Assembly: GCA_944391115.1 (NCBI GenBank)
Contig: CALXSJ010000016.1
Location: 1 to 64,000, forward strand
DNA: 64,000 nucleotides
Direction of reading: 5' to 3'
DNA from: an uncultured Victivallales bacterium
GTDB lineage: Bacteria > Verrucomicrobiota > Lentisphaeria > Victivallales > UBA1829
The notes under the pieces were generated by a model. The model did no database searches. It was given only the letters and a program-made list of their open reading frames with translations, and was not told the DNA's origin. Shown piece after piece: positions 9,029 through 54,985 of the stretch (positions are counted from its first letter, which is position 1; every line of letters starts with the position of its first letter). The translations under genes and the position numbers were made by a program.

Positions 9029-9133
9029 GCGGAGAACCTTTTTTTTCATCCGTTTTTCATGGGGGATTCCGTATTTTTCCGCACGGCGCGGTTCTGTTTT
9101 CCCGACTATTTTCAGGGGAGGAGTTGACAATAT
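9019..9133. promoter_or_regulatory. Inverted pair of a 10-base word, candidate operators
   Basis: ATATTGTCAA at 9019-9028 and TTGACAATAT at 9124-9133 are perfect inverted copies 95 bases apart. The first covers the -35 of the leftward operon; the second covers the start codon of the regulator. A pair like this could be bridged by a dimeric repressor, giving joint control of both directions. Because part of the word equals a -35 box, chance is possible. Confidence 0.35.
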
Positions 9134-10250
9134 GAATTTCATGGGTAGATTACCGGAAAGCAAGTGGACGGACGGGATTGCAATGACAAAACCTTCATCG
9201 CAGTACAAGTATCAGGATTTGAAAGATTATCTGATCCGGCAGATTCAGACGGGACCGCAGGAGAACGGCGGGCAGCTGGAATCGGAGCCGCAGCTGTGCA
9301 GAAAGTTCAATCTGTCGCGCAATACCGCGCGTCAGGCGATGCGGGAGCTGGAGAACGAGGGGTATATCTACCGGATCCACGGGAAAGGAACTTTCATTCG
9401 TTCCGAAACCCCCGCGCGGCTCCGCAAAATCGCACTGCTGGTCTATGATACCGCTTATACGGCGCATCCGGTTACCGGCGCCTTGATCTGCGGGATCGGC
9501 GAAGTTCTCGAGCAGAACGGATATGTCCTGGATATTCTGGCAAGCAGACGCAGTTTTCATGACGAAAGCCTGAAACAGCTTGCCGCCTCCTATGCCGGAT
9601 TTCTGATCGGGTCCTACCAGCTGGATGAATTGACGCTGCGGGAACTGAAAAAAATAGCCAAACCCTGGTTTTTTGTGAAAAACTATCTGCCCGGATATGA
9701 AGAAAAAGCACTGCGGATTGATTTTCATCATGCGGGATTTCTCGCAGCAGAATATCTCGTGCGCACCGGATGCGGGAATCTGGCGCTGATCTACTCCGGC
9801 GAAGGCGTCGCAATTTCCCGTGATTTCAAAAGCGGCGTGGTCGATGCCGCTTTGGAGCATGGGGTCCGTCTCCGCCGCGAAAATATATTTTCCGCCGACT
9901 ATTCCGGCCGGACGGATGTTCCGCATATTGTGGAAGAGCTCCTGGAGCATTCCGACCGTCCGGACGGGATCATCTGCGCCTCCGATGAGCTGGGGGCCGC
10001 GGTTCTGGAGGCACTGGGGAAACGAGGCGTTTCCGTTCCCCAGGAGATGGCGGTGATCGGATGCAACAACACCGTCTTCGGCAGACTGTCTGAACCTGCA
10101 CTGACGACCATCGACATTCATATCGATGAACTCGGCAGGCTGGCGGCCGCCCGGATCATGGAGCTCATTGCCGGCCGGGAATTCACGCCGCAGCTTCTCT
10201 CCCCGTCTTGTATCATACGTGCGTCGACAAACAAGGAATCATGCTCCTGA
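9132..10250 (+). CDS. GntR-type HTH / LacI-type effector domain transcriptional regulator
   Basis: The 372-residue regulator starts at 9132, where GGGGAGGAG lies eight bases upstream. Residues 24-92 form a GntR winged helix (YQDLKDYLIRQIQ, then SRNTARQAMRELENEGYIYR, then HGKGTFI). Residues 97-370 form a LacI-type periplasmic-binding-protein fold (RKIALLVYDTAY, then HAGFLAAEYLVRTGCGNLAL, then DGIICASDELGAAVLEALG). This is the AraR-like architecture, in which sugar binding releases the operator. It is divergent from the DUF5107-GH101/129-like operon, its likely target, and the inverted 10-base pair in the intergenic region may be its site. Confidence 0.9.
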   Translation: MNFMGRLPESKWTDGIAMTKPSSQYKYQDLKDYLIRQIQTGPQENGGQLESEPQLCRKFNLSRNTARQAMRELENEGYIYRIHGKGTFIRSETPARLRKIALLVYDTAYTAHPVTGALICGIGEVLEQNGYVLDILASRRSFHDESLKQLAASYAGFLIGSYQLDELTLRELKKIAKPWFFVKNYLPGYEEKALRIDFHHAGFLAAEYLVRTGCGNLALIYSGEGVAISRDFKSGVVDAALEHGVRLRRENIFSADYSGRTDVPHIVEELLEHSDRPDGIICASDELGAAVLEALGKRGVSVPQEMAVIGCNNTVFGRLSEPALTTIDIHIDELGRLAAARIMELIAGREFTPQLLSPSCIIRASTNKESCS

Positions 10251-18342: not shown

Positions 18343-19194
18343 TTATTGAGGACAGTAATCCGAATAGGTGAGTTTGTCCGTGTAATGCCACACGGAGGTC
18401 AGACTGGCCTTTGACGCCGCCTGGTTGTTCGCAGCGCCCAGCCAGGCTGATTTTGATTTTATCGCGCTGCCGTCAACAAAACAGGCATTGGAACCGCCGC
18501 TGTGACAGTTCAGCCTGCCGAGGCAGAGATCGGCAGCTGTTGAAAACGTATAGACAGCCGACGTGCTTTCTCCCTTTTTTATCTTGTAGTCGCTGCGTTT
18601 CCAGGTTTCGGCAAAGACCATTGTCTTGTTCGCATTCTTTTTTAAATCTGAAAGCTTTCTGGCGTTGACGCCTCCGGCTGCCAGATTGGGCAGACGGTTG
18701 AAATTGTTCTGATATCCGACACTTGCATAGGCGAAAATATAGTTCCATACTGTCATGCCCTGCGTATTTTTCATCGTGGCATTGCCGACGGCGGAGGTCG
18801 TGTCGGAGGGGCAGTGCAGGAGGATCGTTTTCTTTCGCCATAACGGATCGTTGCTGGCTTTTGTCCAGTCATAGCCGTTCTGATACCATGCGAAAAATTC
18901 AATGCATCCGACAACTCCCCGGGAGCCGTAAACATTTGCATAGTTGAAACTGGACGGCATGAGGTATTCATTGAAGTCGTTGGAGTATCCGGCCCAGACA
19001 AGGTAAAGCTGCCTGAAATTATTGAGGCAGGCGATGCCGCGGGCCTTTTCCCGCGCCTGATTCAAGGCCGGAAGCAGCATGGCCGCCAGAATCGCGACGA
19101 TCGCAATTACGATGAGAAGCTCGATCAATGTAAATGTCTGAATCTCCCTTCCTCTTGCCGGCGGTGTAAATTTTCTGTCTTTTTGACAATCCAT
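18343..19194 (-). CDS. Pseudopilin with type II/IV prepilin signal
   Basis: The 283-residue protein starts after GGAGGAG. A 20-residue basic leader is followed by the signal [20 protein letters not shown] and [12 protein letters not shown]. It would be cut before the Phe by a prepilin peptidase, leaving a long hydrophobic helix and a soluble C-terminal domain. The tail contains [23 protein letters not shown] and NACFVDGSA, typical of the DUF1559-like pseudopilins abundant in Lentisphaerota and Planctomycetota. No pilus assembly gene is nearby. It lies in the middle of the eight-gene hydrolase operon, 17 bases after the large unknown gene. Its role in glycan use is unknown. Confidence 0.88.
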
Positions 19195-27226: not shown

Positions 27227-27265
27227 TTGATTTTAACACTTTTTTGTGTATACTAAAATATACAC
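27227..27265 (+). promoter_or_regulatory. Promoter with overlapping palindromic operator for the regulator-oxidoreductase-cupin operon
   Basis: TTGATT (27227-27232) and TATACT (27249-27254) are 16 bases apart. A perfect inverted repeat GTGTATA/TATACAC (27246-27252 and 27259-27265, 6-base spacer) covers the -10 and the start region, the usual place for an autorepressor site. The regulator begins 13 bases further on. Confidence 0.65.
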
Positions 27266-27278
27266 TTGTGGGGAGCTT

Positions 27279-28370
27279 ATGTCAGCGAGGAGTGGAAAAG
27301 TTGTCCGGCAGGCGGAAATCATGCGGTACGTATACAGCTGTCTGATGCACAATCCGTCCGATGAACCGCAGCCCCTCGGCGAACTGGAACTTGCGAAGAA
27401 GTTTCGGACAAACCGTTTGACGATCCGCCGCGCGCTTTCCGCTTTTGAAAACGACGGCAGGCTGATCCGGATTCCCGGACGGCGCGGTCTCTTCATGAAT
27501 CCGGCGGCGGCAAGAGCAATCGGCGACTATTATTTCCTCGGGATTATGACGCAGGAACGTGCGAATCGTTATCTGGACAGCGGGACGCAGCTTCTCATCA
27601 GCGGTTTCGCCGGCAAACTGCGGAATTTGTCCGCCGACTATCATTATCTGGAAATCGCGTCGTCGGAACCGCAGGATGCCGTGGAGGAAATTCTGAACTG
27701 CGGACTGGACGGACTGCTCTGGTGTTCTCCGCCGTCCCGCGACATTCCGGTCATCGAAGAACTTTCACGCCGGAACTTTCCTTTCGTCGTCGTCGCGCCT
27801 CCGCACAAATCCAGTTATCCGCTCCCCGCAAAGAACTGCATTCAGCCTGATTTTACCCAGATCGGCATCCTTCGGGCGCAATGCGTGAGGGATGCAGGAT
27901 GTGGCAGAATCGCGTATTTCGGAACGGAAAGCCCCACCTTTCAGGCCTTTCTTGATTTTTTCCCGTGTTCCGAACGGGAGTATATCATGAATCATCGCTG
28001 CACCAGACTGGAAAGCGGAATTGCCGGAATCCGCATGATTCTTGCCGACGGAGCGGATTGCCTGGTTGCCGACGGAAGAATTTTCTTTTTCCTGCCGGAA
28101 CTGCACCGCTCCCTGCCGGAATTGCGGAATGTGACCCTCGTTCTGGATCCGGTACCCCATGCGTTTCAGGTGCAGCGGAAATATCCGGATTTGAAGATCC
28201 GCATTCCCTCCTACGACTGGTCCGCTGTTCAGTGGAAACTGGGGGAGCGCGCAGCCATTCATTTGCTGAAATCGATGCGCGGGGGAGGGGGATTCCATTC
28301 GGAAATCATGCCCGTCCGCCATCCGGTGCGGCATAACGGTATTTTTAACAAAGGAGCAGATTCAGAATGA
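27279..28370 (+). CDS. GntR-type HTH / LacI-type effector domain transcriptional regulator
   Basis: The start is placed at 27279 (MSARSGKVV), with GGGGAG upstream; the frame opens at 27246 inside the operator. The 363-residue protein has a GntR-like winged helix (about 15-85: LGELELAKKFRTNRLTIRRA, then LIRIPGRRGLFM) and a LacI-type binding domain (about 90-345: YYFLGIMTQERANRY, then LNCGLDGLLWCSPP). It overlaps the downstream dehydrogenase by four bases, so it is co-transcribed with its probable targets and likely represses its own operon through the palindrome at 27246-27265. The ligand-binding half is divergent from typical LacI proteins. Confidence 0.85.
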   Translation: MSARSGKVVRQAEIMRYVYSCLMHNPSDEPQPLGELELAKKFRTNRLTIRRALSAFENDGRLIRIPGRRGLFMNPAAARAIGDYYFLGIMTQERANRYLDSGTQLLISGFAGKLRNLSADYHYLEIASSEPQDAVEEILNCGLDGLLWCSPPSRDIPVIEELSRRNFPFVVVAPPHKSSYPLPAKNCIQPDFTQIGILRAQCVRDAGCGRIAYFGTESPTFQAFLDFFPCSEREYIMNHRCTRLESGIAGIRMILADGADCLVADGRIFFFLPELHRSLPELRNVTLVLDPVPHAFQVQRKYPDLKIRIPSYDWSAVQWKLGERAAIHLLKSMRGGGGFHSEIMPVRHPVRHNGIFNKGADSE

Positions 28371-29856: not shown

Positions 29857-30312
29857 TTCCGCCGCCGGCTTTTGAGATGGGGAATTGATCCTTCCGCGCC
29901 GGAATGACGTTTGACGGAAAGACGGAAGCGGAAACGCTCAAACGGGGTTCCTCGTCTGATTCCCCCTCTGTACCGCACGGCGCGGAATGGAATTTTTCCT
30001 CCATTGAAATCCGACTGATCCAGTGAAAAGTCGCCGACTGCCGCGGTCTGAATCGGAGCCGCTGGATCGTTCCGTTTCCGCACGGCGCGTTCGGCGTCTC
30101 CGTTCCCGTCCTTCCGTTCCTGACACCGTATGTTTGAAATCGGGAAAGGAACTCCCGGGCGCATGCCGGGGGGCGCCCACCCTGATTTTTAAATGTGAAA
30201 AATAGGGCGCTCACCTTATTTTTCCATCAAATCCGGCGCTCCATTTCTTGCAATTGCCTCTCCATACATTTAATTATGGAATCAGAGACCCCGGATGCAC
30301 AGGAGAACAGGC
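29857..30312. other. Intergenic region with a repeated 12-base word and weak promoter
   Basis: No supported gene is seen. CCGCACGGCGCG occurs at 29973-29984 and 30078-30089 (and once at 9079-9090). The last 60 bases become AT-rich, with TTGCAA and TAATTA 17 bases apart at about 30249-30277, a weak promoter for the next regulator. Confidence 0.4.
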
Positions 30313-31590
30313 ATGGGAAGCAAAGCGGAACGCATCGCGCAGGAGCTGCAGAAAAGGATGAGCGGAATGAGTGGCGGGGAAAGACTGCCCTCGGAATCTC
30401 AGCTTGTCCAGGAGTTCGGAATCGCGAAAATGACGGCCGCCCATGTTCTGAATCTTCTGAAACAGCGGCATCTTGCGGAAAGAATCCCCGGCCGCGGAAC
30501 TTTCGTGGCGGAACGTCGGCGCCGGACCATAAATGTCATTGGCGGCTGCGCCCCGTTCTTTGATGTGCTGAGCAGTCTCGTCATGAAAAAATTTCCGGAA
30601 CTGTCGCTGCGGCGTTCCTCCGATCCCGATGCGGAACTGATCAATGCGGTCACGAATATGCCTTTCTCATATGGAAGCATGTTTGCACCATTTCCGGACG
30701 AGATGGTTGCCAGACTGAAATCGGAAAGGCGTTTTTTCCCTTTTGCCCTGGACATGCATGAGCAGGACGGATTCATTTACGGCATACCCGCCTTTTTTTC
30801 TCCGGTGGCGGTCGCCTGGAACAAGCATCTCATGTATGAAATTGAACCGCATTTCGATCCGCGGATGCTGACGCAGGAGTCTTTCCCCGTTCTCTGCCGC
30901 AAGGCATGTGACCGGGGATGGTACGGATTCGGCAATCTTTTTGCCCGGCTTATCATCACCTCTTCAATGCTGTCCGCAGCCATGGTGCGCAATGATGACA
31001 GCGTGATTCACCGGGCGCTTGATCTTGTGCTTCCCTGGTTTCAGTATAAGGATCCCGGGGATGATTTTTCCGGCGGCCGGACTCTCTTTGAATTTGTGCC
31101 TCGTCCCCGTCTTCAGTATTACATGCGGCAGGGGCTTGATTTCGAGCTGGCTCCGTTTCCTTCTTTTTTCAACCAGAAAATCCTGCCTGTCATTTCGGAA
31201 TCTCTTTGCGTCAGCCGCCAGGCCCGGAACAAGGAGCTGCTTTTTCAGATCTGCGAATATACGCTTTCTCCGGAATTTCAGCAGGCGATGTGCAATCGCT
31301 ATCAGGGGCTCTCCGCAGACAGAACAATCACGGTGTCACTGATGGAGGTCCGTTCTTACCGGGATGATTTTTATTTTGCAGGTTTCAACCGGATCAGACT
31401 GATGAAAGATTTTTTCCCCGCCGCATTTTACCGGGAATTTCATCTTCTGTGCGATTCCTTTCTGCGAAATCAGATATCCGGGAAGGAATTCAAGCGGGAA
31501 CTGGACGGATGCTGTAAGATCATTATGCGAAGGGCTGAGTGGTTTCGGAAACTGCGCAGCAATATGCATCATCAGCTTCAGGAACAATAA
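30313..31590 (+). CDS. GntR-type HTH fused to a solute-binding-protein domain
   Basis: The start at 30313 (MGSKAERIAQ) has AGGAG upstream. The 425-residue protein has an N-terminal GntR winged helix (about 1-72: LPSESQLVQEFGIAKMTAAH, then RIPGRGTFVAE). The rest does not look like a LacI fold. It reads like a family-1 extracellular solute-binding protein: YGIPAFFSPVAVAWNKHLMY matches the hinge motif of MalE-type proteins, and ELLFQICEYTLSPEFQQAM matches their C-terminal helix. No signal peptide is present, so the binding domain is cytoplasmic and probably senses a sugar. It is the first gene of the operon ending in the beta-helix protein and may control it. Confidence 0.75.
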   Translation: MGSKAERIAQELQKRMSGMSGGERLPSESQLVQEFGIAKMTAAHVLNLLKQRHLAERIPGRGTFVAERRRRTINVIGGCAPFFDVLSSLVMKKFPELSLRRSSDPDAELINAVTNMPFSYGSMFAPFPDEMVARLKSERRFFPFALDMHEQDGFIYGIPAFFSPVAVAWNKHLMYEIEPHFDPRMLTQESFPVLCRKACDRGWYGFGNLFARLIITSSMLSAAMVRNDDSVIHRALDLVLPWFQYKDPGDDFSGGRTLFEFVPRPRLQYYMRQGLDFELAPFPSFFNQKILPVISESLCVSRQARNKELLFQICEYTLSPEFQQAMCNRYQGLSADRTITVSLMEVRSYRDDFYFAGFNRIRLMKDFFPAAFYREFHLLCDSFLRNQISGKEFKRELDGCCKIIMRRAEWFRKLRSNMHHQLQEQ

Positions 31591-31642: not shown

Positions 31643-32176
31643 ATGAAAAAAGAGATTCTGGTTCTTTCGGCTCTCGTTACGCTTTCCGCACTGGCAGAGC
31701 CGGTTGATCTGCAGATGCCTTTCAAGCCGGGGGGTGAAACTCCTCTTGCGGCCTGGGAAGGCAGAAGCTTCGAACTTGTTACGGAAAAAGACGGAACGGC
31801 CGTGAAACTGCCGAAGGGACAGGGACTCCGCTTCAAGAATCCGATTCCCGGGAAAGCCGGCGACAAAGTCGCTTATGAAATTACCATGAAGAAAACGGCC
31901 GGCAATCTTTCCGTTCGTCTGGCGCAGTGGAGCAAAGAAGGTCATATCGGGGAGGTTGTCGGTTTCCCGGGCGGAGTCTGGAATCCGGAACGTTCGAAGG
32001 CCATCTCCGGCTATACCACGTTCAAGGGGGAGATTGTGCTCAGGGATGCCGACAAGCCGGACAAGAAAGGAATCATGCGCAAAGTCAACCGTTTTTATCT
32101 TACCGTCTATGCGCATCGTGATTCGGAAAATGTCATGGTGAAAGACGTCAAACTGAATCTTATGCCCGGACAATGA
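31643..32176 (+). CDS. Secreted beta-sandwich protein
   Basis: The 177-residue product starts after AAAGGAG and has a signal peptide (ILVLSALVTLSALAEPVD). The remainder is a single beta-rich domain (KVAYEITMKKTAGNLSVRLA, ending ENVMVKDVKLNLMPG) with the look of a CBM4/9-like carbohydrate-binding fold. I cannot name the family. It lies 52 bases after the GntR-SBP regulator and 61 bases before a pseudopilin gene. Sugar binding at the cell surface is an inference from fold and context. Confidence 0.65.
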   Translation: MKKEILVLSALVTLSALAEPVDLQMPFKPGGETPLAAWEGRSFELVTEKDGTAVKLPKGQGLRFKNPIPGKAGDKVAYEITMKKTAGNLSVRLAQWSKEGHIGEVVGFPGGVWNPERSKAISGYTTFKGEIVLRDADKPDKKGIMRKVNRFYLTVYAHRDSENVMVKDVKLNLMPGQ

Positions 32177-32237: not shown

Positions 32238-32996
32238 ATGAAGAGAAAATTCACCCTGATCGAACTGCTTGTCATAATTGCGATCATCGCGATACTGGCG
32301 GGAATGCTTCTGCCGGCTCTGCAGAAGGCGAAGGAACAGGCATACAAAATCAAATGCATTGCGAGTCTTTCGCAGATCGGCAAAGCCTGCAGTTTCTATT
32401 CCGATGACAACAAGGACTATCCCGTATTGCTCCGGAACGGGGACAAGGCGTCCACCTCCACGCAGTTCTGGTACAAGGCAAGTGAAAGTGAAGGCATGCT
32501 TGCCCCGTATCTCCGTCTGTATTCTTCCGCCCCGCTGGGCGGATTTTACAAGTCCGCCGCTACGACCAGCCATTCCCAGTTTGCCTGCCCGTCACGCGAC
32601 TTTTCCGGACAGAGCGGATATGTTTACGCACTGGGACTCCATGGGCAGCTGAATGTTGCAGGCATGCAGAGCGGCGAAGCCGGAAAAGTCGGAAGTGTCC
32701 TCCGTCCTTCCCGCAGCTGTTATATCGCGGAATCTCCATTCGGGAATACCAGCATTTCCTACTCGAAAGCGGACTGGCCTGCTTTCCCGCACGGCAATCC
32801 GGCCTGCGGAACCGGCGATGGCGCGGGCACCGACACCCCGCTGCTGAACGGCCCCGGCAGCTGCAATGTTCTGTTTTTCGATCTGCATGTCGAATCCATT
32901 GCCCGCAACCGGATGCCGAGTTATCAGCGGAATCCCGGCGATTACAAAACAACCTTCTGGAAACCCTGGGACCGCAATGCGGACGACAACTGGTAA
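32238..32996 (+). CDS. Pseudopilin with type II/IV prepilin signal
   Basis: The 252-residue protein has a very short leader, MKRK, then [20 protein letters not shown] and LPALQKAKEQAY, the full prepilin signal and hydrophobic helix. The C-terminal domain has KCIASLSQIGKACSFYSDDN, FACPSRDFSGQ and NVLFFDLHVESI, matching the DUF1559-like pattern of the 18343-19194 protein. It is the third gene of the operon between the secreted beta-sandwich protein and the dipeptidase homologue. It would need a prepilin peptidase and assembly system encoded elsewhere. Confidence 0.88.
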   Translation: MKRKFTLIELLVIIAIIAILAGMLLPALQKAKEQAYKIKCIASLSQIGKACSFYSDDNKDYPVLLRNGDKASTSTQFWYKASESEGMLAPYLRLYSSAPLGGFYKSAATTSHSQFACPSRDFSGQSGYVYALGLHGQLNVAGMQSGEAGKVGSVLRPSRSCYIAESPFGNTSISYSKADWPAFPHGNPACGTGDGAGTDTPLLNGPGSCNVLFFDLHVESIARNRMPSYQRNPGDYKTTFWKPWDRNADDNW

Positions 32997-33013: not shown

Positions 33014-34267
33014 ATGGGATGCAATTATGACGATGACGTGAAAAAGAATGCCGAACGCTGCTGGCAGACGGCGCTGAACATTCTGCGTCCGGATAAAAAA
33101 ACACTGGAACACGGACTGGAGCTTCATGCCGATGCTTTTGTCGCGGAATCCTACGGATTTCTGCCTGCCGCGCATGTCCGGATTGATCTTTATGACGGGT
33201 GGATCGATCAGGGACTGCACGGAATGGAACTGCGCGACCGCTATGAAGAATATGTCCTTCTGAATTTTCTCAAGGATGGAACGAACCTGCAGGATTTCCA
33301 GTATGCCATCCGGAAAGCCGGTGTCAACTGCATCGGAGTCAATGCCGGAATTGAAAACAATTCCGTTTCGGAACTCATCAAGCGTCTGAGCTATTATACC
33401 TGCCTCTGCGACAGCTTTCCGGAAATCCTGCGGCGCTGCACGACGCCGGAACAGATGCTGGAAGCGAAACGCGACGGAAAACTGGCACTTGCCTTTGACA
33501 CCAATGCCGTTCCGCTTCCCGGACACCTTGAAAACCTGGAACAGGCGCTTTCCTTCCTCCGGGTATTTGCCCGTCTGGGGGTGCGCATGATGCATTTGAC
33601 CTATAACCGCAGGAACCTTATCGGAGACGGCTGCGCGGAATCCGGGGATGCCGGCCTGAGCGGTTTCGGACGCTCGGTAATCGAGGAAATGAACGCATGC
33701 GGGATTATCCCCGATCTGGCGCACAGCGGCAACCGCACTGCCATTGAGGCGGCGGAGCACTCCCGGAAACCTGTGGTCATCAGCCACAGCGCGTCTGCGG
33801 CTCTGAGCGATCATTACCGCTGCAAGCAGGACGACGCGGTGCGCGCTGTGGCAAAGTCCGGCGGCTTCATCGGAGTCTGCGCCTATCCGAAGTTTCTGCG
33901 AGGCAGCGGAGATATCGCGGCCATGCTCGATCACATCGGGCATTTCGTGGAGCTTGTCGGCGCGGATCATGTCGCCATTGCCACGGATTCCGGAGCGATG
34001 GTCGGTCCGCTGCGCTACTCCCGGAAAACATATCGCAAACTGCCGCTCTTTGATTCCTGGTGGGCGAAGGATGCGGACATATCCCCGTTCGAGGAGACCG
34101 GGGAAATGTGGGACTCCATGGCATGGACCAATTTCCCGCTGTTCACCGTCGGCATGGTGCAGCGCGGATTTTCCGACGGGGATATCCGGAAGATTCTGGG
34201 TGAAAATTATCTGAGGGTATTGAAGGCGACGCAGACTGACGACTTCTCTTCAGTGAAAAATCATTAA
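33014..34267 (+). CDS. M19 (membrane/renal dipeptidase) family protein
   Basis: The 417-residue protein matches the M19 amidohydrolase family: ELHADAF gives the first metal ligands (His38, Asp40); GVRMMHLTYNRRNLIGDGCA is the family's conserved strand-loop; GIIPDLAHSG and KPVVISHSAS carry the two later histidines. M19 enzymes cleave dipeptides or related amides and need two zinc ions. The usual bridging glutamate (IEGG) seems replaced: the matching segment reads LAFDTNAVPL, so metal binding or activity may be changed. There is no signal peptide. It follows the pseudopilin by 17 bases. Why a dipeptidase homologue sits in this operon is unclear. Confidence 0.82.
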   Translation: MGCNYDDDVKKNAERCWQTALNILRPDKKTLEHGLELHADAFVAESYGFLPAAHVRIDLYDGWIDQGLHGMELRDRYEEYVLLNFLKDGTNLQDFQYAIRKAGVNCIGVNAGIENNSVSELIKRLSYYTCLCDSFPEILRRCTTPEQMLEAKRDGKLALAFDTNAVPLPGHLENLEQALSFLRVFARLGVRMMHLTYNRRNLIGDGCAESGDAGLSGFGRSVIEEMNACGIIPDLAHSGNRTAIEAAEHSRKPVVISHSASAALSDHYRCKQDDAVRAVAKSGGFIGVCAYPKFLRGSGDIAAMLDHIGHFVELVGADHVAIATDSGAMVGPLRYSRKTYRKLPLFDSWWAKDADISPFEETGEMWDSMAWTNFPLFTVGMVQRGFSDGDIRKILGENYLRVLKATQTDDFSSVKNH

Positions 34268-34291: not shown

Positions 34292-37200
34292 ATGATGCGG
34301 CAAATCCTGTTGAAATCCTGTTTCTGTTTCCTGACTGCAGCCCTGCTGCATGGCGCGGAATATTATGTCGGAGAGAACGCGCAGTTCAAAACGATCGGAG
34401 AAGGTATCCGGGCGATGAAGCCCGGCGATACGCTGACGATTCTTCCCGGCACATATTTTGAATCCGTGGAACATGCCGGACTCGGCAATGCGGAGAAGAA
34501 AACCGTGATTCGTGCGCAGCGGGCAGGAAGTGTCCTGCTGCGGGGCGACAAGGAGGCGCCGGTCTTTCATCCTGTTTTCGGCACCAGATTCACCTTTGTC
34601 TGCGACTGGAAGGAGAATGCCCTTGCCGTCAATGAACGCGACTCTCTCAAGATTCTGCTGCCGTCGGCGACACTTCGCGATCTGGAATTTGAGCGCGGAC
34701 GTTTTTTTCATGACAGGAAGAACGGTAAACTGTATATTTCCACAACTGACGGCGAGCTTCCGTCCCGGCATTATTACACGGTCTCCGTGATCCGCGGCAG
34801 CGGAATTTTCCTGAAAAATCCGGTCAATGTGACAATCGACGGCCTTTATGTCACGGGATTCTATTCTCATGAACGGGTGGAAAACCGCATGAGTTCCGCG
34901 CTTTACGGAATCCGCATCAATTTCGGAATCAACTGCACGATTCGCAACTGCCGCGCGTTTTTCAATGCCAACGGGATCCACAGCGGACACGGCGACGGCA
35001 ATATTCTGGAAAATTGCACCGTCTACGCAAACGGTTCCCACAATCCCTCCTCCGGCGGGCAGCTGGTGATCTGGGGGCCGGTCAAAAACAGTGTGATCCG
35101 GAACTGCGTCTCTTTTTTCAGCGCGAAACCGGACGGTCCCGTCGGCATCCGCATTTACGGCGGCCGGGGTGAAAACTGCCGCATTGAAAATTGCATTTCA
35201 TTCGGAGAACAGGCAACCGCAATCAAACTGAATGAGAACATCAACAGCTGGTGCATCGGCAATTACAGTGAAGGCGGTCTGGACGCGCTCTATACCCGCG
35301 GCAATACCGCGGGAGGGATTAACGGATATAAGACAAATGATCCCGATCTGCTGAGAATTGACCGCATCCGGCGCGATCAGCGGAATGTGCTGTTTGCCGA
35401 TCCGGATCGCCACGATTACCGTCCGCAGGAGGGGGCGCCGGGCGTCTCCAGAGGGCTGCCCGACCGGAACAATGTCTTTTTCGTATCGCCTTTCGGCAAT
35501 GATTCCGCTTCCGGACGCTCCCTCAAAAACGCCTGGAAAACCTTGAGGAATCTGAAACCGGATTCCACCGTTTACCTGCTGCCCGGCGTTTACGGGGCGC
35601 AGAAGATCACGGTTCCCCGTGTCCTGCTTTCCACGCGCGGCACAGGAGCGAAAGCCATTTTCAACGATACTTTTTCCATTGCGGCTTCCGATGTGCGTCT
35701 TCGCGACCTGAACTTCATCAAAGGCAAGGTTTCCGTGTCCGGAGCGAATGCCCGCATCGAAGGATGCGGTTTTCATGTCCCGTTGAAAATCACGGGAAAA
35801 AACGCGCAGATTTTTCACAACGCCTTTACCGTGGCTCCGGAATGGGATGGGACAGCGTCGGCGCACAGCAATCTGCTGCCGGACACGAGGCCGGAACCGC
35901 TCTATTCCGATGCGGCGGGAGGTGATTTCACTCTGAAAAATGCGGAGATGTTCGCCGGGCGCGGCTTTGATGCTCTGCCGGTCGGTCCGTACCGGCTGCT
36001 GCGCGAAGCGAAGCCTGCCAGAATTACCGGTCCTTTTGTCCGCTCTGTGACGGCGACCACCGCCAACATCGAATGGTGGACCGACCGCAGCGACGTCAGT
36101 TCCGAACTTTACTGGGGAGCGGATCCCTCCTGCGGGAAAAAAGTCGGGAAAGGATATGCGGGAGGCAGTTATCATTCCGCCGCGATTACCGGACTGGAGC
36201 CGGGGAGGAAATATTATTTCCGCATTGCCTCCCGTTCCCCGCTGCGGGAACACCATTCCAACACGGAACTTGCCATCGCCGACAAATTCAAGGCGCGCGA
36301 ACTGGTCAAATCGGAAGTTGCGGAATTCAAAACGGCTTCCGCGGAGGCGCCGCGCCGGGAATATTTCGTGTCGCCGGCAGGGAATGACGCCAATCCGGGA
36401 ACAAAAGGCGCCCCCCTGGCTTCCATTTCACATGCCATGGATCTTGCTCTCGCCGGAGATACCGTTACGGTGGAACCGGGGATCTACAGCGAACATGTCA
36501 TGTTCCGGTCCGGCGGGGACCAGGGACGTGAAATTCTGCTTCGTTCTGCGGTTCCGGGCCGGGCCGTTATTGACGGACGCCGCAGGATCCCCGTCATTAT
36601 GACGCTGGAGAACAAATCGCATGTCACGGTGGATGGATTCACCTTCCGGAATGTGGCGGGGACACAGGGCGCCTGCCTGCGCATCAGCAACGGCAGGGAG
36701 ATTGCGGTCCGGCGCTGCTTTTCGGACGGACGCTCCAGCAGCTATACCCCCGGACTGGTGAGGGCGGAGTTTGCAGAAAATCTGCTGCTGGACAATTGCG
36801 TAATCATCAGCAGTTTTTTCGGCGGCATGTTCATGCGCTGTCCCGGTCTGGTCGTGAAAAACTGCGTCTGGTATCTGAATGCCCGGCATATTTATGTACA
36901 CAATCAGCCGGATGAACCCATGCTGTTTGAAAACTGCCTTATGGCGGAAAACCTTGCACTGAAACATGTTCTGGAATTCTTCCGGGTATGGCATCTGGAG
37001 GCTCTGAAGGTAAGAAACTGCGCATTCCATCTGCGGATGCCGAAGGAGCATCGCACAATGGTTGCCTTCCTCCGAAAAAACGGTGACCGGGTTGACCGCC
37101 AGCTCAAATGGCCGGAACTGAAAGCGGGCGGAGTCGATATGAGCGGCACCATTTTCGGAGATCCCCAATGGAACATCCTTCCGAAGGGGCTGATGATGTT

Positions 37201-37414
37201 TTCCACTCCGCCGGAACTGGAAAAGAACCCGGAGGCTCTGGTCCGGCATTATTACAAAGAGGCGGCGCGTTTCAGCCGCACATACCGTGAAGCGGAATTG
37301 GGGGAGAAGCAGACTCCTTATGATTATGCAGCATGGAAGATCGAGGATTTCATTTCGCGCAATCCGGAATTTCTGAAAAGGAAAATCGGTTTGCTTCCGG
37401 AAGCGTTTCAGTGA
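34292..37414 (+). CDS. Secreted multi-module right-handed beta-helix protein
   Basis: The 1040-residue protein has a signal peptide (LLKSCFCFLTAALLHGAE). Three beta-helix modules follow: about 22-340 (FKTIGEGIRAMKPGDTLTIL), about 390-560 (FFVSPFGNDSASGRSLKNAW) and about 690-1010 (YFVSPAGNDANPGTKGAPLA); the FVSP-x-GND opening is typical of DUF1565 and pectate-lyase-like folds. Between the second and third lies a fibronectin-III-like domain (about 575-685, ITGLEPGRKYYFRIASRSP). Proteins like this are polysaccharide lyases or glycosidases acting on the surface or outside the cell. Catalytic residues cannot be assigned. It ends the five-gene operon. Confidence 0.8.
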   Translation: MMRQILLKSCFCFLTAALLHGAEYYVGENAQFKTIGEGIRAMKPGDTLTILPGTYFESVEHAGLGNAEKKTVIRAQRAGSVLLRGDKEAPVFHPVFGTRFTFVCDWKENALAVNERDSLKILLPSATLRDLEFERGRFFHDRKNGKLYISTTDGELPSRHYYTVSVIRGSGIFLKNPVNVTIDGLYVTGFYSHERVENRMSSALYGIRINFGINCTIRNCRAFFNANGIHSGHGDGNILENCTVYANGSHNPSSGGQLVIWGPVKNSVIRNCVSFFSAKPDGPVGIRIYGGRGENCRIENCISFGEQATAIKLNENINSWCIGNYSEGGLDALYTRGNTAGGINGYKTNDPDLLRIDRIRRDQRNVLFADPDRHDYRPQEGAPGVSRGLPDRNNVFFVSPFGNDSASGRSLKNAWKTLRNLKPDSTVYLLPGVYGAQKITVPRVLLSTRGTGAKAIFNDTFSIAASDVRLRDLNFIKGKVSVSGANARIEGCGFHVPLKITGKNAQIFHNAFTVAPEWDGTASAHSNLLPDTRPEPLYSDAAGGDFTLKNAEMFAGRGFDALPVGPYRLLREAKPARITGPFVRSVTATTANIEWWTDRSDVSSELYWGADPSCGKKVGKGYAGGSYHSAAITGLEPGRKYYFRIASRSPLREHHSNTELAIADKFKARELVKSEVAEFKTASAEAPRREYFVSPAGNDANPGTKGAPLASISHAMDLALAGDTVTVEPGIYSEHVMFRSGGDQGREILLRSAVPGRAVIDGRRRIPVIMTLENKSHVTVDGFTFRNVAGTQGACLRISNGREIAVRRCFSDGRSSSYTPGLVRAEFAENLLLDNCVIISSFFGGMFMRCPGLVVKNCVWYLNARHIYVHNQPDEPMLFENCLMAENLALKHVLEFFRVWHLEALKVRNCAFHLRMPKEHRTMVAFLRKNGDRVDRQLKWPELKAGGVDMSGTIFGDPQWNILPKGLMMFSTPPELEKNPEALVRHYYKEAARFSRTYREAELGEKQTPYDYAAWKIEDFISRNPEFLKRKIGLLPEAFQ

Positions 37415-38083: not shown

Positions 38084-38650
38084 ATGGAATGGAATCGCAA
38101 ATTTCCTGCGGCGGCACTCTGCGGACTTTTTTTCTGCGGAATGCTTGACGGACGCGAATATTGTTACCCGATGGAGAAAGACAGTGATTTCAGGGCGACC
38201 TTCAAACGGGATTTTGACAAAGTCTGTTATGTTCCGAACGGAGTGACAGGCCGTTGTTTCAAGGCAGTGGTTCCTGCGGACAGCGGAAAGGGATTCACGG
38301 TGCATTCCGGCAATCGTCAATACACCCGTTTTCCCGTGGAACTGCATGTTTCAGGCATGTTCAAAGGGAAAGGAACTTTTACCATCGGTTTCATTGTCTA
38401 CAACCGTCAGGGGAAAATCTACTGGATTACCAAAGCGCCGGGTTCCTCCTCTCCTCCTTTTTCCATTCATTCCGACCGTTGGGAGAAGAAATACTTTCTA
38501 TTCCGCCCTTCCGAGGAAAATGTTCAGGAAATCACCGGCTTTCTGACCATGGTTTCTCTGTCGCCGGGTTCGGAGATCTATATGGATGACATTCGGACAA
38601 GAATCATGGAGCGGCCTGCCGCTGCCGGTAGAGATGGATCCGGACGATGA
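38084..38650 (+). CDS. Secreted beta-sandwich protein
   Basis: I place the start at 38084 (MEWNRKFPAA) because the next residues form a signal peptide (AAALCGLFFCGMLDGREY); the frame is open from 37955, but that ATG overlaps the palindrome and none of the candidates has a good ribosome binding site. The 188-residue product is one beta-rich domain: FPVELHVSGMFKGKGTFTIG, then FIVYNRQGKIYW, ending PGSEIYMDDIRTRIM. This follows the CBM4/9-like pattern and shares the GKGT-x-x-x-GF element with the SGNH protein at 14668-16284. It heads an operon with a NagA-like enzyme. Confidence 0.6.
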   Translation: MEWNRKFPAAALCGLFFCGMLDGREYCYPMEKDSDFRATFKRDFDKVCYVPNGVTGRCFKAVVPADSGKGFTVHSGNRQYTRFPVELHVSGMFKGKGTFTIGFIVYNRQGKIYWITKAPGSSSPPFSIHSDRWEKKYFLFRPSEENVQEITGFLTMVSLSPGSEIYMDDIRTRIMERPAAAGRDGSGR

Positions 38651-38690
38651 ATCGGGAGCAAAAGGCGAACAGGGATTCAGGAAGCAGCTT

Positions 38691-39611
38691 ATGTTTTTCG
38701 AATATCATTTTCACGGATGCATCGGTCACAAGACCACGGAACTGAACCGCGAGGCGTATGAGGAGATGTCCGTCTTCCTGAAAGAGGAGGGAGAGACCGA
38801 CGCCTTTCTTGCCGCATTTTCCGCTGCCCCGATCGACAATCTGACGGCATGTCTGGAATTCTGCGGGGAACTGATGCATGGGCCGCCGCTCTCCGGAGCG
38901 CAGCTCACGGGCGTTTATCTGGAAGGACCGTTTGTCCGTCTGGCGGGCGGCATGACCGAATCCCTGCTGGCGGCGCCGTCCCTGAAAGCGGCGAAACGCC
39001 TGGTTTCCGCCGGACGCGGCATCATCAGAAATGTAACCGTAGCCCCGGAACTCTCCGGAATCCTGCCTGTCATTGAATGTTTTGCTTCGGAGGGGATTCC
39101 TGTTTCCGCCGGTCATTTTTCCTGTTCCCCGGAAATGCTGAATACGGCGGTTTCCGCCGGACTCTCTTCAATTACGCACTTCTGCAACAATGGCGAAGGA
39201 GCTTTGCGGAACGAAAACGGGGTCTATTTCACAGAAGGTCCCTTCCTCGATATTCTTGCCGACGACCGTCTGACGGTGGAAATGATCTGCGACGGCATAC
39301 ATGTGAATCCGAAATTAATCAAAACCGTCTGGCGCGCCAAAGGCCGTGAACGGTTCATCGCCATCACGGACGGGTGTGCCGCCACCGGACTTCCCGGCAA
39401 ACGACTGGTCTTTCCGGATCCCGCCGGAACTCCGGCGGAATTCGACGTGCGCAACGGCGCGCTTTATATCGCCGGAACCGGAAAACTCACGGGAAGTCTG
39501 GCAACCATGAAGCGGATTCATCAAAACTTAATTCAATTCTGCGGAATGACCGATGCAGACGCCGCATACGCCTGCTCCGGCCTGCCGCGCAAAAAAGCAG
39601 GAGTTCTTTAA
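38691..39611 (+). CDS. NagA-like amidohydrolase (N-acetylglucosamine-6-phosphate deacetylase family)
   Basis: The start at 38691 (MFFEYHFHG) follows AGGAAG; the longer frame from 38586 overlaps the upstream gene. The 307-residue protein keeps the NagA metal and catalytic residues: His6 and His8 in EYHFHG, Glu78 in VYLEGPF, His142 in AGHFS, His163 in ITHFCNN, His204 in DGIHV and Asp227 in ITDGC. NagA removes acetate from GlcNAc-6-P. At 307 residues it lacks the beta-sandwich domain that flanks the barrel in typical NagA (about 380), so the substrate may differ. It is directly followed by the alpha/alpha-barrel gene with no gap. Confidence 0.8.
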   Translation: MFFEYHFHGCIGHKTTELNREAYEEMSVFLKEEGETDAFLAAFSAAPIDNLTACLEFCGELMHGPPLSGAQLTGVYLEGPFVRLAGGMTESLLAAPSLKAAKRLVSAGRGIIRNVTVAPELSGILPVIECFASEGIPVSAGHFSCSPEMLNTAVSAGLSSITHFCNNGEGALRNENGVYFTEGPFLDILADDRLTVEMICDGIHVNPKLIKTVWRAKGRERFIAITDGCAATGLPGKRLVFPDPAGTPAEFDVRNGALYIAGTGKLTGSLATMKRIHQNLIQFCGMTDADAAYACSGLPRKKAGVL

Positions 39612-41870
39612 ATGCATGAGGAAATCTGGGCCCGCCAGCGGATGATCGCGGACTACACAGGCAGGGCGCGTTATTACAAGCTGGCGGAGCTGCCGGAACG
39701 TCAGGCGGAACTGATCCGCGGAGAAAAAGCCGTGGTGGTTTGCGGAAATCTGCTGCGCGCCTATGTCTTCGAACGGAATCTCTGGCGCAAAAAAGCGGAA
39801 TCCGATCTGGGCGAAGTCCGGGAAGTGACGTCCGGCAAAGATCACATTCTGATTGAAAGCGCCGCCGGTTCCGAGCGCATCACCGTTGCGGAGGATCCAC
39901 TTGAAAAGGAAGTTTATTTTGTGCGTGATGTGCATTACCGCAATGCCGGAGAGGCCGTTTTCCGTTCCAGTTATTTCAATGAGGGGCCGATCGCCGATTT
40001 CACTTATGTCTCTTACAAATGGATGTCGCGCAAGATGAATCAGGGCGGATATCCCTTCAGCAAAGAGTGGAGCGATTATCTCGCCACTGCGGCGAACAAC
40101 CGGATTTTCTACACCTGTTCCGGCCATCTCTACTTCGGGGAAGCCTATCTGGAAACGGAGCTGGACCGCATTTCCGACACGGAGCGCGAAGATACGGAAC
40201 TGGCGCATGTTTTCAGACTGCGCAGGCCCGTGAACGGTCCGCTGGATCTGCGGTATTTCTGGTTTTTCGGAAAAGGCGGCGAGGAACATGCCGGCGTGCT
40301 TTCCAATGTGATGTGGCATCTGGACAAATCGCCGGTGCACGTTCCGCAGACCGATATGCACGACTTCGTGGAAAAACTGGTTTCGATCTGGCCGCGTTCC
40401 GAGCTCAAGGGGGAGGAAGAGGCGGATCATTACGCCGCACACTATTTTGCGGAATTCTTCGGACAGTTCAAGAATGGTTATCGTCCGCCGGATCAGTTCG
40501 GCTGCTCCTGGCTGGAATACGATCTGCTCAAAGCCAACGAGTTTTACCGCCGCTGGAAACTGACGGGAAAAGCCGAATACCGGGAACGCACGGTGAAACT
40601 GCTGAACTTTTATCTTTATCATCATTACGCCGGCGCTTCGAAACTGACTTATCCCTTCCATACCGGCGACTTCATGAAAAACATCATGCCGTTCTGCGAA
40701 AAAACCGGCTGGGGGGCGCCTTTCGAGGCGGAGGCGCTGGATTCGCTGGCTCTGCCGGAAATGATCTTCGACGCCATGACGCTGTATCTGCAGGACGAGA
40801 CGCTGTTCCAGAGCCAATATCCGTTTGACATTCTGGATGATGTGCTGAAACTGCAGCAGCCGGACGGACATTTCCGCCGTCTCTACAATTCGGATCTTGC
40901 GCCGAAGGAAAAAGCAGGCTGGATCAGCCAGTATTCCGAGACACAGACCTGGATCCCCGCGCTTGTCAAGCTGTATCAGGCGACAGGAGACGAACGGCTG
41001 CGCGCCGCTTATCTGAAAACTGCGGAACGCTGTCTTCTGGATCTGGAGGAATCGGGGATGTTTTCCATGGGGGGCTGTGAAACGGATTACCCGGATTTCT
41101 GGGATGTGGACGGCTACCGCACCATGCTCTGGGCGTTCCTGGATCTCTACGATCAGGAAAAGGACGCCAAATGGCTTGCCGCCGCGGAAAAGGTCCAGCT
41201 CTACGGCAATATCATGCAGATGGGTTACAATGTACCGAATGTGCCGGGCAGTTTCTACGACCGTATCTCCTGGAAGTCCCGCGGCATGATCGCAACAAGT
41301 TATTACACCTGGCCGGATTACTCCCGCACCCAGTGCACCGCCACCGGCAATCAGTCCGTGGCATGGGTCGCGTATCTGCTGATGCGTCTTTACAGAGCCA
41401 CCGGAAAGGCCGTTTACATGGAACGCGGCATCGCGGCATTCCGTCAGGTCATGCTGCACCGGGACGGGAAGAGTCTGGAAGGGAATCCTCACAGGGATCA
41501 GATCCTTTACAGCATCTACGAGAACAATCCGCAGATGGACGACGAATCCGGTCTTTACAAGCACAGCTACCCGGAAAACAGCTATTCCCTCTTCATCGAC
41601 CTTTATCTGTATCTCGGCGTCATTCTGCGGGAATTCGGCGGCGTCAGCGTCGATACCCGGCGGAAACAGGCATTTGGACTGGATTGCGTCAAAATTGTGA
41701 GCGCGGACTGGAACAAAGGAGTGCTTGTCATTCAGAATGAGCTGAATCGGGACCACATCACCTCTTTGTTCATGAACGGAAAAGATAGCGGCAAGATTTC
41801 TTTCTGCGCAGGGGAAGTCAAACGCATTTCGCTTGCAGAACAGGCAGAAACAGCCGGCTGTCAATTTTAA
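39612..41870 (+). CDS. Probable (alpha/alpha)-barrel glycan-active protein, family unknown
   Basis: The 752-residue protein begins on the base after the NagA-like stop codon. There is no signal peptide. Residues 1-250 are beta-rich (VYFVRDVHYRNAGEAVFRSS). Residues about 285-690 show repeated helix pairs of an (alpha/alpha)6 barrel (NGYRPPDQFGCSWLEYDLL, then YSETQTWIPALVKLYQATGD, then TATGNQSVAWVAYLLMRLYR). The last 60 residues are a small beta domain. I cannot assign a CAZy family; the layout is like GH127 and related enzymes. A cytoplasmic glycosidase role for an amino-sugar glycan is inferred from the neighbours. Confidence 0.65.
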   Translation: MHEEIWARQRMIADYTGRARYYKLAELPERQAELIRGEKAVVVCGNLLRAYVFERNLWRKKAESDLGEVREVTSGKDHILIESAAGSERITVAEDPLEKEVYFVRDVHYRNAGEAVFRSSYFNEGPIADFTYVSYKWMSRKMNQGGYPFSKEWSDYLATAANNRIFYTCSGHLYFGEAYLETELDRISDTEREDTELAHVFRLRRPVNGPLDLRYFWFFGKGGEEHAGVLSNVMWHLDKSPVHVPQTDMHDFVEKLVSIWPRSELKGEEEADHYAAHYFAEFFGQFKNGYRPPDQFGCSWLEYDLLKANEFYRRWKLTGKAEYRERTVKLLNFYLYHHYAGASKLTYPFHTGDFMKNIMPFCEKTGWGAPFEAEALDSLALPEMIFDAMTLYLQDETLFQSQYPFDILDDVLKLQQPDGHFRRLYNSDLAPKEKAGWISQYSETQTWIPALVKLYQATGDERLRAAYLKTAERCLLDLEESGMFSMGGCETDYPDFWDVDGYRTMLWAFLDLYDQEKDAKWLAAAEKVQLYGNIMQMGYNVPNVPGSFYDRISWKSRGMIATSYYTWPDYSRTQCTATGNQSVAWVAYLLMRLYRATGKAVYMERGIAAFRQVMLHRDGKSLEGNPHRDQILYSIYENNPQMDDESGLYKHSYPENSYSLFIDLYLYLGVILREFGGVSVDTRRKQAFGLDCVKIVSADWNKGVLVIQNELNRDHITSLFMNGKDSGKISFCAGEVKRISLAEQAETAGCQF

Positions 41871-52413: not shown

Positions 52414-53109
52414 TTATTGAATCCAGACGGATTTTCTGCCGACGAAATCGACCCGGAGAACCCCGGTCATCTTCTGTTCTTCAAACTTATTGTAATAACG
52501 CGGAACTCTGACCGTGTTGCCGTCCAGTGCCTGGGAGGGCGACAGGCTTGCGGCATGTCCGTCAAGGAATATGATATTGCCGCTCGTTCTGTGGAACAGT
52601 GCAAATACGCCGCTTGCCGTTGTTTTTCCTCCTTCCATTACACAGAAGGGACCGTTCCAGTCAAAACGCCAGGCTTCTCCCAGAAGAAGCATCCGCGATG
52701 TGTTTTTGAACTGATTCAGCGGCATATACTGAAAAACATTCTGCATATGGCAGCGGGGAACGGCATAGGTGTGAACCTCGCTGATGCCCTGATAGAGGCT
52801 GAAGGCCTCCGGGCAGATTTTCTGTTTCAGATCACTGTTTTTCTGAAATCCCGGCAACCCGGCTTTTTGGTAATAGAAGAACCATGACGTTTTACGTCCT
52901 ACCGGCTGTTGGGCAAAAATAAAGCCTTTGTTGTCCTCCGCGTAATTCAGGAGCAGTAAACTCAGCTGTCGTTCCTGATTCAGGCAGCTGATCTTCCGCG
53001 CGTTCATTCTGGCATTGTTCAACGCCGGCAGCAGCATGGCCGCAAGAATGGAAATGATTGCAATAACGACAAGAAGCTCGATCAAAGTGAAATTTTTCCA
53101 GCGGGACAT
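52414..53109 (-). CDS. Pseudopilin with type II/IV prepilin signal
   Basis: The chosen start is 53109 (MSRWKNF), with AGGAG upstream; the frame stays open to 53283. The 231-residue protein has the prepilin signal [20 protein letters not shown] followed by [20 protein letters not shown]. The C-terminal part shows [31 protein letters not shown] and [17 protein letters not shown], in line with DUF1559-like pseudopilins. It is the first gene of the six-gene leftward operon with the MFS symporter and the PL8-like lyases, and is divergent from the GntR/LacI regulator at 53903. Confidence 0.88.
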
Positions 53110-53518
53110 GAATAGATTTCTCCTTTTATTTGTGAATGATTCTGCAAGTGCAGGAATGTTCTGTTTCTGGATACGGTCACCGGCAGCAGTGCGGAGCGGC
53201 ACCGCGTAAGCCCGCTCCATGATTTTATTCTTGAAAGAAAACGTTCCGGTCATGGCATTCTCCTTTTTTTTGATTGCAGGCATTGCCGGCTTTCCTGTTT
53301 TTCATATGGCAGTCATGCTTTTTGCTTCCGCGGATGGAATTCCCGTGCTTCGAACAATTCATGTTTTCAAGTCCGTCGTAATGCAAACCCGCATTTTGAC
53401 TGCCGCAGAAAATCCTTTTTTGTTTTCTGGAAGCGTCGGGACAGGAGTCTGTTTTCTGTTCTTCCATGCTGGAAGGAGATGCTGCCGAGTGCCGCCAGTT
53501 TTTTTGTTACGCTATTTA
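53110..53518. other. Long leader or non-coding region before the pseudopilin operon
   Basis: About 410 bases separate the best leftward promoter from the pseudopilin ATG. The pseudopilin frame is open back to 53283, and an 80-codon leftward frame (53225-53467) exists but has no ribosome binding site. It may be an untranslated leader. I see no clear RNA structure. Confidence 0.35.
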
Positions 53519-53902: not shown

Positions 53903-54985
53903 ATGACGGAAAAGGGAGAGAAAAACAAACGGGGGCGGAAAACCGATAAGCGCGATTCGCTCCGGGAACGTATTTCCGAGGATTTGCGCAATGGCGTCTT
54001 TTCCGGCAAGCTGCCGGGACTGAACGTGCTGGCGCAACGCTATGGAGCGTCTCCGGCAACCGTGCAGCGTTCCCTGCGTGAACTTTCGGCATTGGGATTT
54101 GTCGATATCCGGCCGAGAAGCGGGACATATGTGAAACTTTCGCGCGAAGTGAATTTTGTCTTTTTTGAAGATCATATGGCGGATTCTGCCAAAGGTGTCA
54201 GCCGTCCTTCCGGTTTCCAGGCGGAGTATGGAATTCTGTATGACGGACTCCATGATACCCTTCGTGACGCCGGGGTCGTATGCCAATTTTACCAGGTTGA
54301 CGGCAGTTCTCCGCGTTTTCTGAACGACAATGCTCTGGTGGTTGCTCTCTTCACCCAATATGTGCAGGAGTTTGCCTACCGCTTTTTGGAGAATACGAAC
54401 TGGATCCGTGTGATGGGGGCTCAGGACTATAATTGTCCCGGCGGTCATATCACTTACGATAATCTCCGGATCGGCAGGATGGCGGTCGATTATCTCGCTT
54501 CCGCCGGATGCCGGAGAATCGCCTGCATCGGAAGTCCCCGCCTGCTGCTTTTCCGCCAGCGGATCGATTCGGTTCTCGAAGAGTGCCGTGTCCGCGGAAT
54601 TGAAATCCAGCAGTGGGAGGTTGACCTTCAGTCGATGCCGCTTTCGGAAATCTGCCGGAGGATCGGGAACGGCATTGCGGCAGACCGCGAGGCCATCGCG
54701 TCCGGCGAACTGGGCATTTTCTGCTGTGCAGACCATTTTATGGTGCCTTTGCGGCAGGAGATGGCGGCTGTGGGGCTTTCTCCGGAAACAATACACCATC
54801 TGTCATGTGACAACAATCCCTGTTTCCTGCGGGGCATCTATCCTCCTCCGGCAGAAATAGATATCGGAATGTACCGGATTGGAGTAGCTGCGGCGCATCA
54901 GATTCTCGGACCCGCCGGGCAGATCAAAAACAAATCGATGATTTCTCCGGAACTGATCCTCCCGGATCCCGGCGAATATAAATGA
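53903..54985 (+). CDS. GntR-type HTH / LacI-type effector domain transcriptional regulator
   Basis: The 360-residue protein starts after GGAGGTGTCTT. After a very basic tail (EKNKRGRKTDKRDSLRER) comes a GntR winged helix (about 18-80: LPGLNVLAQRYGASPATVQR, then GFVDIRPRSGTYVKL). Residues about 85-355 form a LacI-like effector domain (YDNLRIGRMAVDYLASAGCR, then IACIGSPRLLLFRQRIDSVL). It is divergent from the six-gene pseudopilin-MFS-PL8-GH29 operon and probably controls it in response to a released disaccharide. A 108-base gap separates it from the next rightward gene. Confidence 0.88.
   Translation: MTEKGEKNKRGRKTDKRDSLRERISEDLRNGVFSGKLPGLNVLAQRYGASPATVQRSLRELSALGFVDIRPRSGTYVKLSREVNFVFFEDHMADSAKGVSRPSGFQAEYGILYDGLHDTLRDAGVVCQFYQVDGSSPRFLNDNALVVALFTQYVQEFAYRFLENTNWIRVMGAQDYNCPGGHITYDNLRIGRMAVDYLASAGCRRIACIGSPRLLLFRQRIDSVLEECRVRGIEIQQWEVDLQSMPLSEICRRIGNGIAADREAIASGELGIFCCADHFMVPLRQEMAAVGLSPETIHHLSCDNNPCFLRGIYPPPAEIDIGMYRIGVAAAHQILGPAGQIKNKSMISPELILPDPGEYK

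Follow-up and report, generated by a model that had tools for sequence, protein, structure and literature searches.

Organization of the locus

Within the 64-kb stretch of DNA analysed (hereafter the window), a reading frame that starts with an ATG at 30313, stays open to 31590 and is preceded by an AGGAG is, judged by its sequence, a real gene. It encodes a regulator in which an N-terminal GntR winged helix-turn-helix (HTH) is joined to a region with the predicted fold of a family 1 (MalE-like) solute-binding protein (SBP). Four genes follow on the same strand (Table 1). The first, whose 177-aa product matches no Pfam family above cut-off, probably belongs to the operon of the regulator. Further downstream, the proteins encoded at 38586-39611 and 39612-41870 match no Pfam family at E 0.01, and the former reads like a diverged NagA-type amidohydrolase.

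Table 1. Features of the GntR-SBP locus (positions in the window)
Feature	Position	Strand	Evidence
Second inverted repeat upstream of the gene, AAAATAGGGCGCTCACCTTATTTT	30199..30222		sole site in window
Candidate operator CCATACATTTAATTATGG (CCATA-N8-TATGG), 34-51 bp upstream of regulator start	30262..30279		sole window match
Ribosome-binding site AGGAG, 7 nt before ATG	30301..30305	+	sequence
GntR-SBP regulator gene, 425 aa	30313..31590	+	domain, profile and fold evidence
GntR winged helix-turn-helix, residues 5-65	30325..30507	+	PF00392, E 5e-11
Predicted family 1 (MalE-like) solute-binding-protein fold, residues 69-417	30517..31563	+	AF2 model, VIA-align Z <=26.1, profile matches to sugar SBPs
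Small secreted-looking protein, 177 aa, 52 bp downstream	31643..32176	+	ORF with N-terminal hydrophobic leader
Pseudopilin-like protein	32238..32996	+	weak N_methyl/DUF1559 matches
M19 dipeptidase without apparent signal peptide	33014..34267	+	PF01244, E 9e-65
Secreted right-handed beta-helix protein, 1040 aa, polysaccharide-lyase-like	34292..37414	+	DUF1565, Chondroitinas_B and Pel9A-like matches

The match to PF00392 scores 42.4 bits against a Pfam cut-off of 27, and the GntR domain is also found by Pfam in all members of A1, an alignment of ten full-length relatives from whole genomes that served as the source of profiles. Neither a signal peptide nor a lipoprotein leader was found in the regulator, whose N-terminus is the HTH, without hydrophobic leader, and no transmembrane segment was detected. 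Because no stretch exceeds 1.6 (19-residue Kyte-Doolittle) and the HTH is N-terminal, the sequence places the protein in the cytoplasm.

The regulator has no Pfam match to UTRA, the mark of the HutC subfamily; HutC models match residues 8-71 only, far under cut-off, and in the predicted structure the region behind the HTH has another fold, which sets the protein apart from that subfamily. It likewise has no Pfam match to Peripla_BP, the LacI/PBP1 domain of the AraR subfamily. SBP_bac_5 and SgrR_N, which define the SgrR family, have no Pfam match in the regulator or in the members of A1.

The effector domain

In the regulator taken by itself, the C-terminal part has no Pfam match, and a single-sequence search of the PDB with the regulator returned only marginal matches to maltose-binding proteins (E about 1-2). 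The A1 profile retrieved the sugar-binding proteins 4r9f (E 2e-6), 7c14 (3e-5) and 3uor (2e-4), and Pfam matched three A1 members to SBP_bac_1 and two to SBP_bac_8. A protein of the sister clade described below (L040) exceeds, in one chain, the Pfam gathering scores for GntR, SBP_bac_8 and SBP_bac_1, and the fusion is thus no artefact of modelling.

In the AlphaFold (AF2) model of the regulator (pLDDT 83.8, pTM 0.73), residues 70-417 align with the beta-1,2-glucooligosaccharide-binding protein 5ysf at Z 26.1 over 337 residues; the cycloalternan-binding protein 5f7v and UgpB (6r1b) follow at Z 25.8 and 25.3. The alignment to family 1 SBPs, also seen in the Foldseek list, spans residues ~69-417. 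On the model, this region is a complete two-lobed family 1 (type II) SBP fold, and its closest structural neighbours are oligosaccharide binders. That it should instead have a LacI-type (PBP1) fold or some unrelated one, making the protein an ordinary AraR-like GntR-LacI regulator, is extremely improbable. Such regulators are very common in the genome of the window, but the model matches family 1 SBPs at full length, the profile matches are sugar SBPs and sister proteins pass the SBP_bac_8 and SBP_bac_1 cut-offs. LacI/PBP1 folds were absent from the structural match lists; such lists cannot exclude a fold, and it is the positive match that carries weight here.

The original prediction, which had read the gene as a GntR HTH joined to a MalE-like rather than LacI-type effector, is thus borne out by domain, profile and fold evidence and by the sister protein; since residues 70-417 align to 5ysf, the structure prediction that it had proposed did not yield the LacI/PBP1 or unrelated fold named as its refutation. 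It had also counted three other GntR-type regulators of the window as LacI-type. Two of these (9132-10250 and 53903-54985) do have a detectable LacI-type domain, but the third (27246-28370) has a weak GntR match only. The C-terminal part of this GntR-like protein is without Pfam match, and its gene heads a Gfo/Idh/MocA oxidoreductase gene and a cupin gene.

Distribution and clades

A single-protein query with the regulator of the window against the genome contigs returned no relatives. Profile searching recovered full-length relatives in many genomes of Lentisphaeria, some of the 37 positive genomes being matched by the HTH only. The family comprises two sister clades, A, which includes the protein of the window, and B. 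An alignment of the two clade profiles runs from end to end through 401 columns and takes in the HTH (E 2e-40), in keeping with a single ancestral fusion. For pattern searches the A1 alignment proved too diverged, whereas the sister-clade alignment was usable.

A clade-A paralogue is present in the genome of the window (G000:C1:289087-290301). Victivallis vadensis DSM 14823, of the same order, carries five clade-B copies. Clade B also occurs in many uncultured Lentisphaeria, in other classes of Verrucomicrobiota, and in Planctomycetota (Phycisphaerae included), with Phycisphaeraceae NAT22 and Planctomycetes bacterium syqfu as examples. Two clade-B-like regulators (L133 and L163) lie on contigs labelled Smithella and Spirochaetia, reflecting either transfer or misbinned MAG contigs. 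The search for the same fusion in other genomes, suggested at the outset, has uncovered a two-clade family that is widespread in Lentisphaeria. The fusion had been expected to be uncommon, which holds in so far as descriptions of it are scarce; as a family, it is large and multi-copy in Lentisphaeria and in some other Verrucomicrobiota and Planctomycetota.

These two deeply split clades have both kept the two-lobed fold in full, as well as the signature segments YGIPxxFSP, FDxxPMP and FQ...GIP, which suggests that the binding cleft has been preserved. This makes it quite unlikely that the SBP domain has ceased to bind a small molecule and become a dimerisation or protein-interaction platform, docking for example a transporter or a PTS-like protein, so that the regulator would answer to protein contact. 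What speaks for such a platform is the low sequence identity with true SBPs (10-15%), together with the small number of domain residues that are invariant in the small alignment.

Gene neighbourhoods

HMMs from the clade-A set were used to compare the neighbours of 21 clade-A loci with those of 20 mostly clade-B loci and of 20 GntR-LacI controls; as the seeds were taken from clade-A loci, the counts apply to that gene set and should not be read as an unbiased survey. Members of the beta-helix family of the 1040-aa protein lie near 16 of the 21 clade-A regulators, whereas the 20 controls have none (Fisher p 2e-7). An M19 dipeptidase is a neighbour in seven clade-A loci, the window included, and an AspA/AstE-like hydrolase (deacylase) in nine; neither occurs beside any of the 20 controls. 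Clade-A loci (L051-L069 and the window) have one or the other of these enzymes but in no case the two together, and the palindrome upstream of the regulator differs between the two types. Genes for CapA-like proteins and metallophosphatases sometimes also recur beside clade A.

Among the neighbours of clade-B regulators are beta-helix proteins, polysaccharide lyase 8 (PL8) and rhamnogalacturonan-lyase-like, GH88 and GH127 proteins. The beta-helix proteins adjacent to clade B are not recognised by the clade-A beta-helix HMM and constitute a different family. It is therefore only that beta-helix family, and not beta-helix proteins in general, that is specific to clade A. The pseudopilin was considered as a specific partner and dropped, being equally common beside the GntR-LacI controls. 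Pseudopilin-like genes with FTLIELLV leaders, in the window at 18343-19194, 32238-32996 and 52414-53283, lie beside most GntR-type regulators of these genomes, SBP- and LacI-type alike.

On the contig of the window (C16) there is no match to the ABC permease family BPD_transp_1 or to SBP_bac_1, in agreement with the earlier view that the regulator leads an operon without an ABC transporter. The genome holds about six SBP-permease sets, all located off this contig. Two frames, G000:C7:110314-112635 (897 codons) and G000:C4:160041-162500 (933), combine SBP_bac_1 and BPD_transp_1 in one open frame and look like importer SBP-permease fusions.

Candidate operators and promoters

Conserved palindromes upstream of the regulator genes are candidate operators of GntR-SBP regulators. 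CCATA-N8-TATGG has a single match in the window, whereas shuffles gave 0. In three other genomes M19-type relatives have the same pattern at a distance of 21-44 bp upstream, and these positions make up 2 of 2 genomic sites (G092), 2 of 2 (G379) and 1 of 1 (G374); agreement between the window and these relatives is confined to the outer 5+5 bases, and the arms were fixed after the relatives had been seen. The genome of the window contains three such sites, the other two away from GntR-SBP genes. For AspA-type clade A, eight genomes (~34 Mb) contain exactly four copies of TAAYCTANNNTAGRTTA, all of them upstream of GntR-SBP genes at a distance of 26-57 bp; the four sites cover two genera, and one belongs to the paralogue in the genome of the window.

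In clade B, 12 of 21 regulators have TGACNNNGTCA (TGAC-N3-GTCA) no more than ~120 bp upstream (best shuffle count, 7); in a second set, which shares part of its loci with the first, about 26 of 43 full-length loci have it upstream. The motif, sometimes present twice, marks sister-clade promoters in Lentisphaeria (L118-L160), Victivallis vadensis included. The inverted repeat AAAATAGGGCGCTCACCTTATTTT has no conserved counterpart in relatives. ATAG-N6-CTAT was rejected as a family operator, since it is present in three relatives only and absent from the window.

Most GntR regulators act as repressors. The palindrome of several relatives overlaps or directly follows a consensus TTGACA-N17-TATAAT promoter, as expected for a repressor, and this position suggests autorepression; the window's own promoter is a poor sigma-70 match. 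Both the usual behaviour of GntR proteins and the placing of the palindromes over or just behind the -10 box, the customary site for a repressor, make a ligand-dependent activator an unlikely alternative, even though SgrR, the best known HTH-SBP regulator, has been described as an activator of sgrS (PMC3901232).

A model for regulation

The reading that we favour, and regard as probable, is that of an autoregulated one-component repressor in which a GntR winged helix is coupled to a cytoplasmic family 1 SBP sensor and is released from its operator by ligand. A dimer of the regulator would bind the palindrome CCATA-N8-TATGG within the promoter region of its own gene and repress its operon, with the genes for the 177-aa secreted protein, the pseudopilin, the M19 dipeptidase and the beta-helix protein. 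A small molecule derived from the polymer attacked by the operon may then enter the cytoplasm through a transporter encoded elsewhere and close the two lobes of the SBP domain. This movement would be passed to the winged helices, freeing the operator. The conserved upstream sites support the DNA side of this model; dimerisation, repression as opposed to activation, and ligand-driven lobe closure are what we infer for the rest. A cytoplasmic SBP domain acting as a sensor, as originally predicted, finds support in the sequence and fold, the absence of export and membrane signals, the conserved neighbours and the candidate operators.

The fold and the neighbours point to an imported oligosaccharide or an amino-sugar/peptide conjugate (glycoconjugate) as the presumed ligand. 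Given the M19 dipeptidase and the AspA-like deacylases, a pure sugar is uncertain: these enzymes suggest that a peptide or acyl-amino-acid moiety belongs to the ligand, and they hint at an amide-linked part in the ligand or in its parent. A variant of this model that differs in the ligand has the operon acting on peptidoglycan or glycopeptides, with a muropeptide-like effector instead of a plain oligosaccharide. The recurrence beside clade A of M19 or AspA/AstE-like genes, at times with CapA-like and metallophosphatase genes, would fit it. It is nonetheless unlikely, as the beta-helix protein resembles a polysaccharide lyase or hydrolase and the sister clade neighbours lyases of plant and glycosaminoglycan type.

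Comparison with known regulators

On balance, we lean towards the view that these proteins form an undescribed, clade-wide class of the PVC group, in which family 1 SBPs serve as cytoplasmic sensors on GntR, each with its own operator and enzyme cassette, and replace LacI-type sensors for dozens of polysaccharide-use operons. The solute-capture fold of ABC importers would thereby have been recruited inside the cell as a GntR transcriptional sensor across a whole bacterial class. Regulator, operator and operon together may provide a handle on how Lentisphaeria sense polysaccharide breakdown products, an almost unstudied field, and the proteins may represent ready-made sugar-sensing modules for synthetic biology. 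In annotation they could easily be mistaken for extracellular solute-binding proteins.

No description of a GntR and family 1 SBP fusion was found in the literature searched, which omits most subscription journals. HTH-SBP regulators are already known and, as far as could be found, it is this particular pairing that appears undescribed, although the architecture is visible to Pfam. A survey of SBPs reports that SBP Pfam domains also act as sensor domains of transcriptional regulators (PMC9602780), and DsvR/SgrR are one-component regulators with an N-terminal HTH and a C-terminal SBP_bac_5 domain (PMC13060122). Compared by domain make-up, SgrR of E. coli and DsvR of Vibrio cholerae share this general plan with the regulator studied here but combine an SgrR-type HTH with SBP_bac_5, in place of GntR with a family 1 SBP.

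AraR-type regulators likewise link a GntR winged helix to a periplasmic-binding-protein-like sensor and occur in the same genomes with the same pseudopilin neighbours; their sensor, however, is of the PBP1 (LacI) type and not a MalE-like type II SBP. MalE-like family 1 SBPs (5ysf, 5f7v, UgpB) have the fold predicted for residues 69-417 (Z 25-26), but they are exported and serve ABC transporters, whereas the regulator is without signal peptide and has a DNA-binding domain attached. Btr of Bacillus, which joins an AraC HTH to a siderophore SBP domain, also has an SBP-like cytoplasmic effector domain, and differs in its HTH and in the class of SBP.
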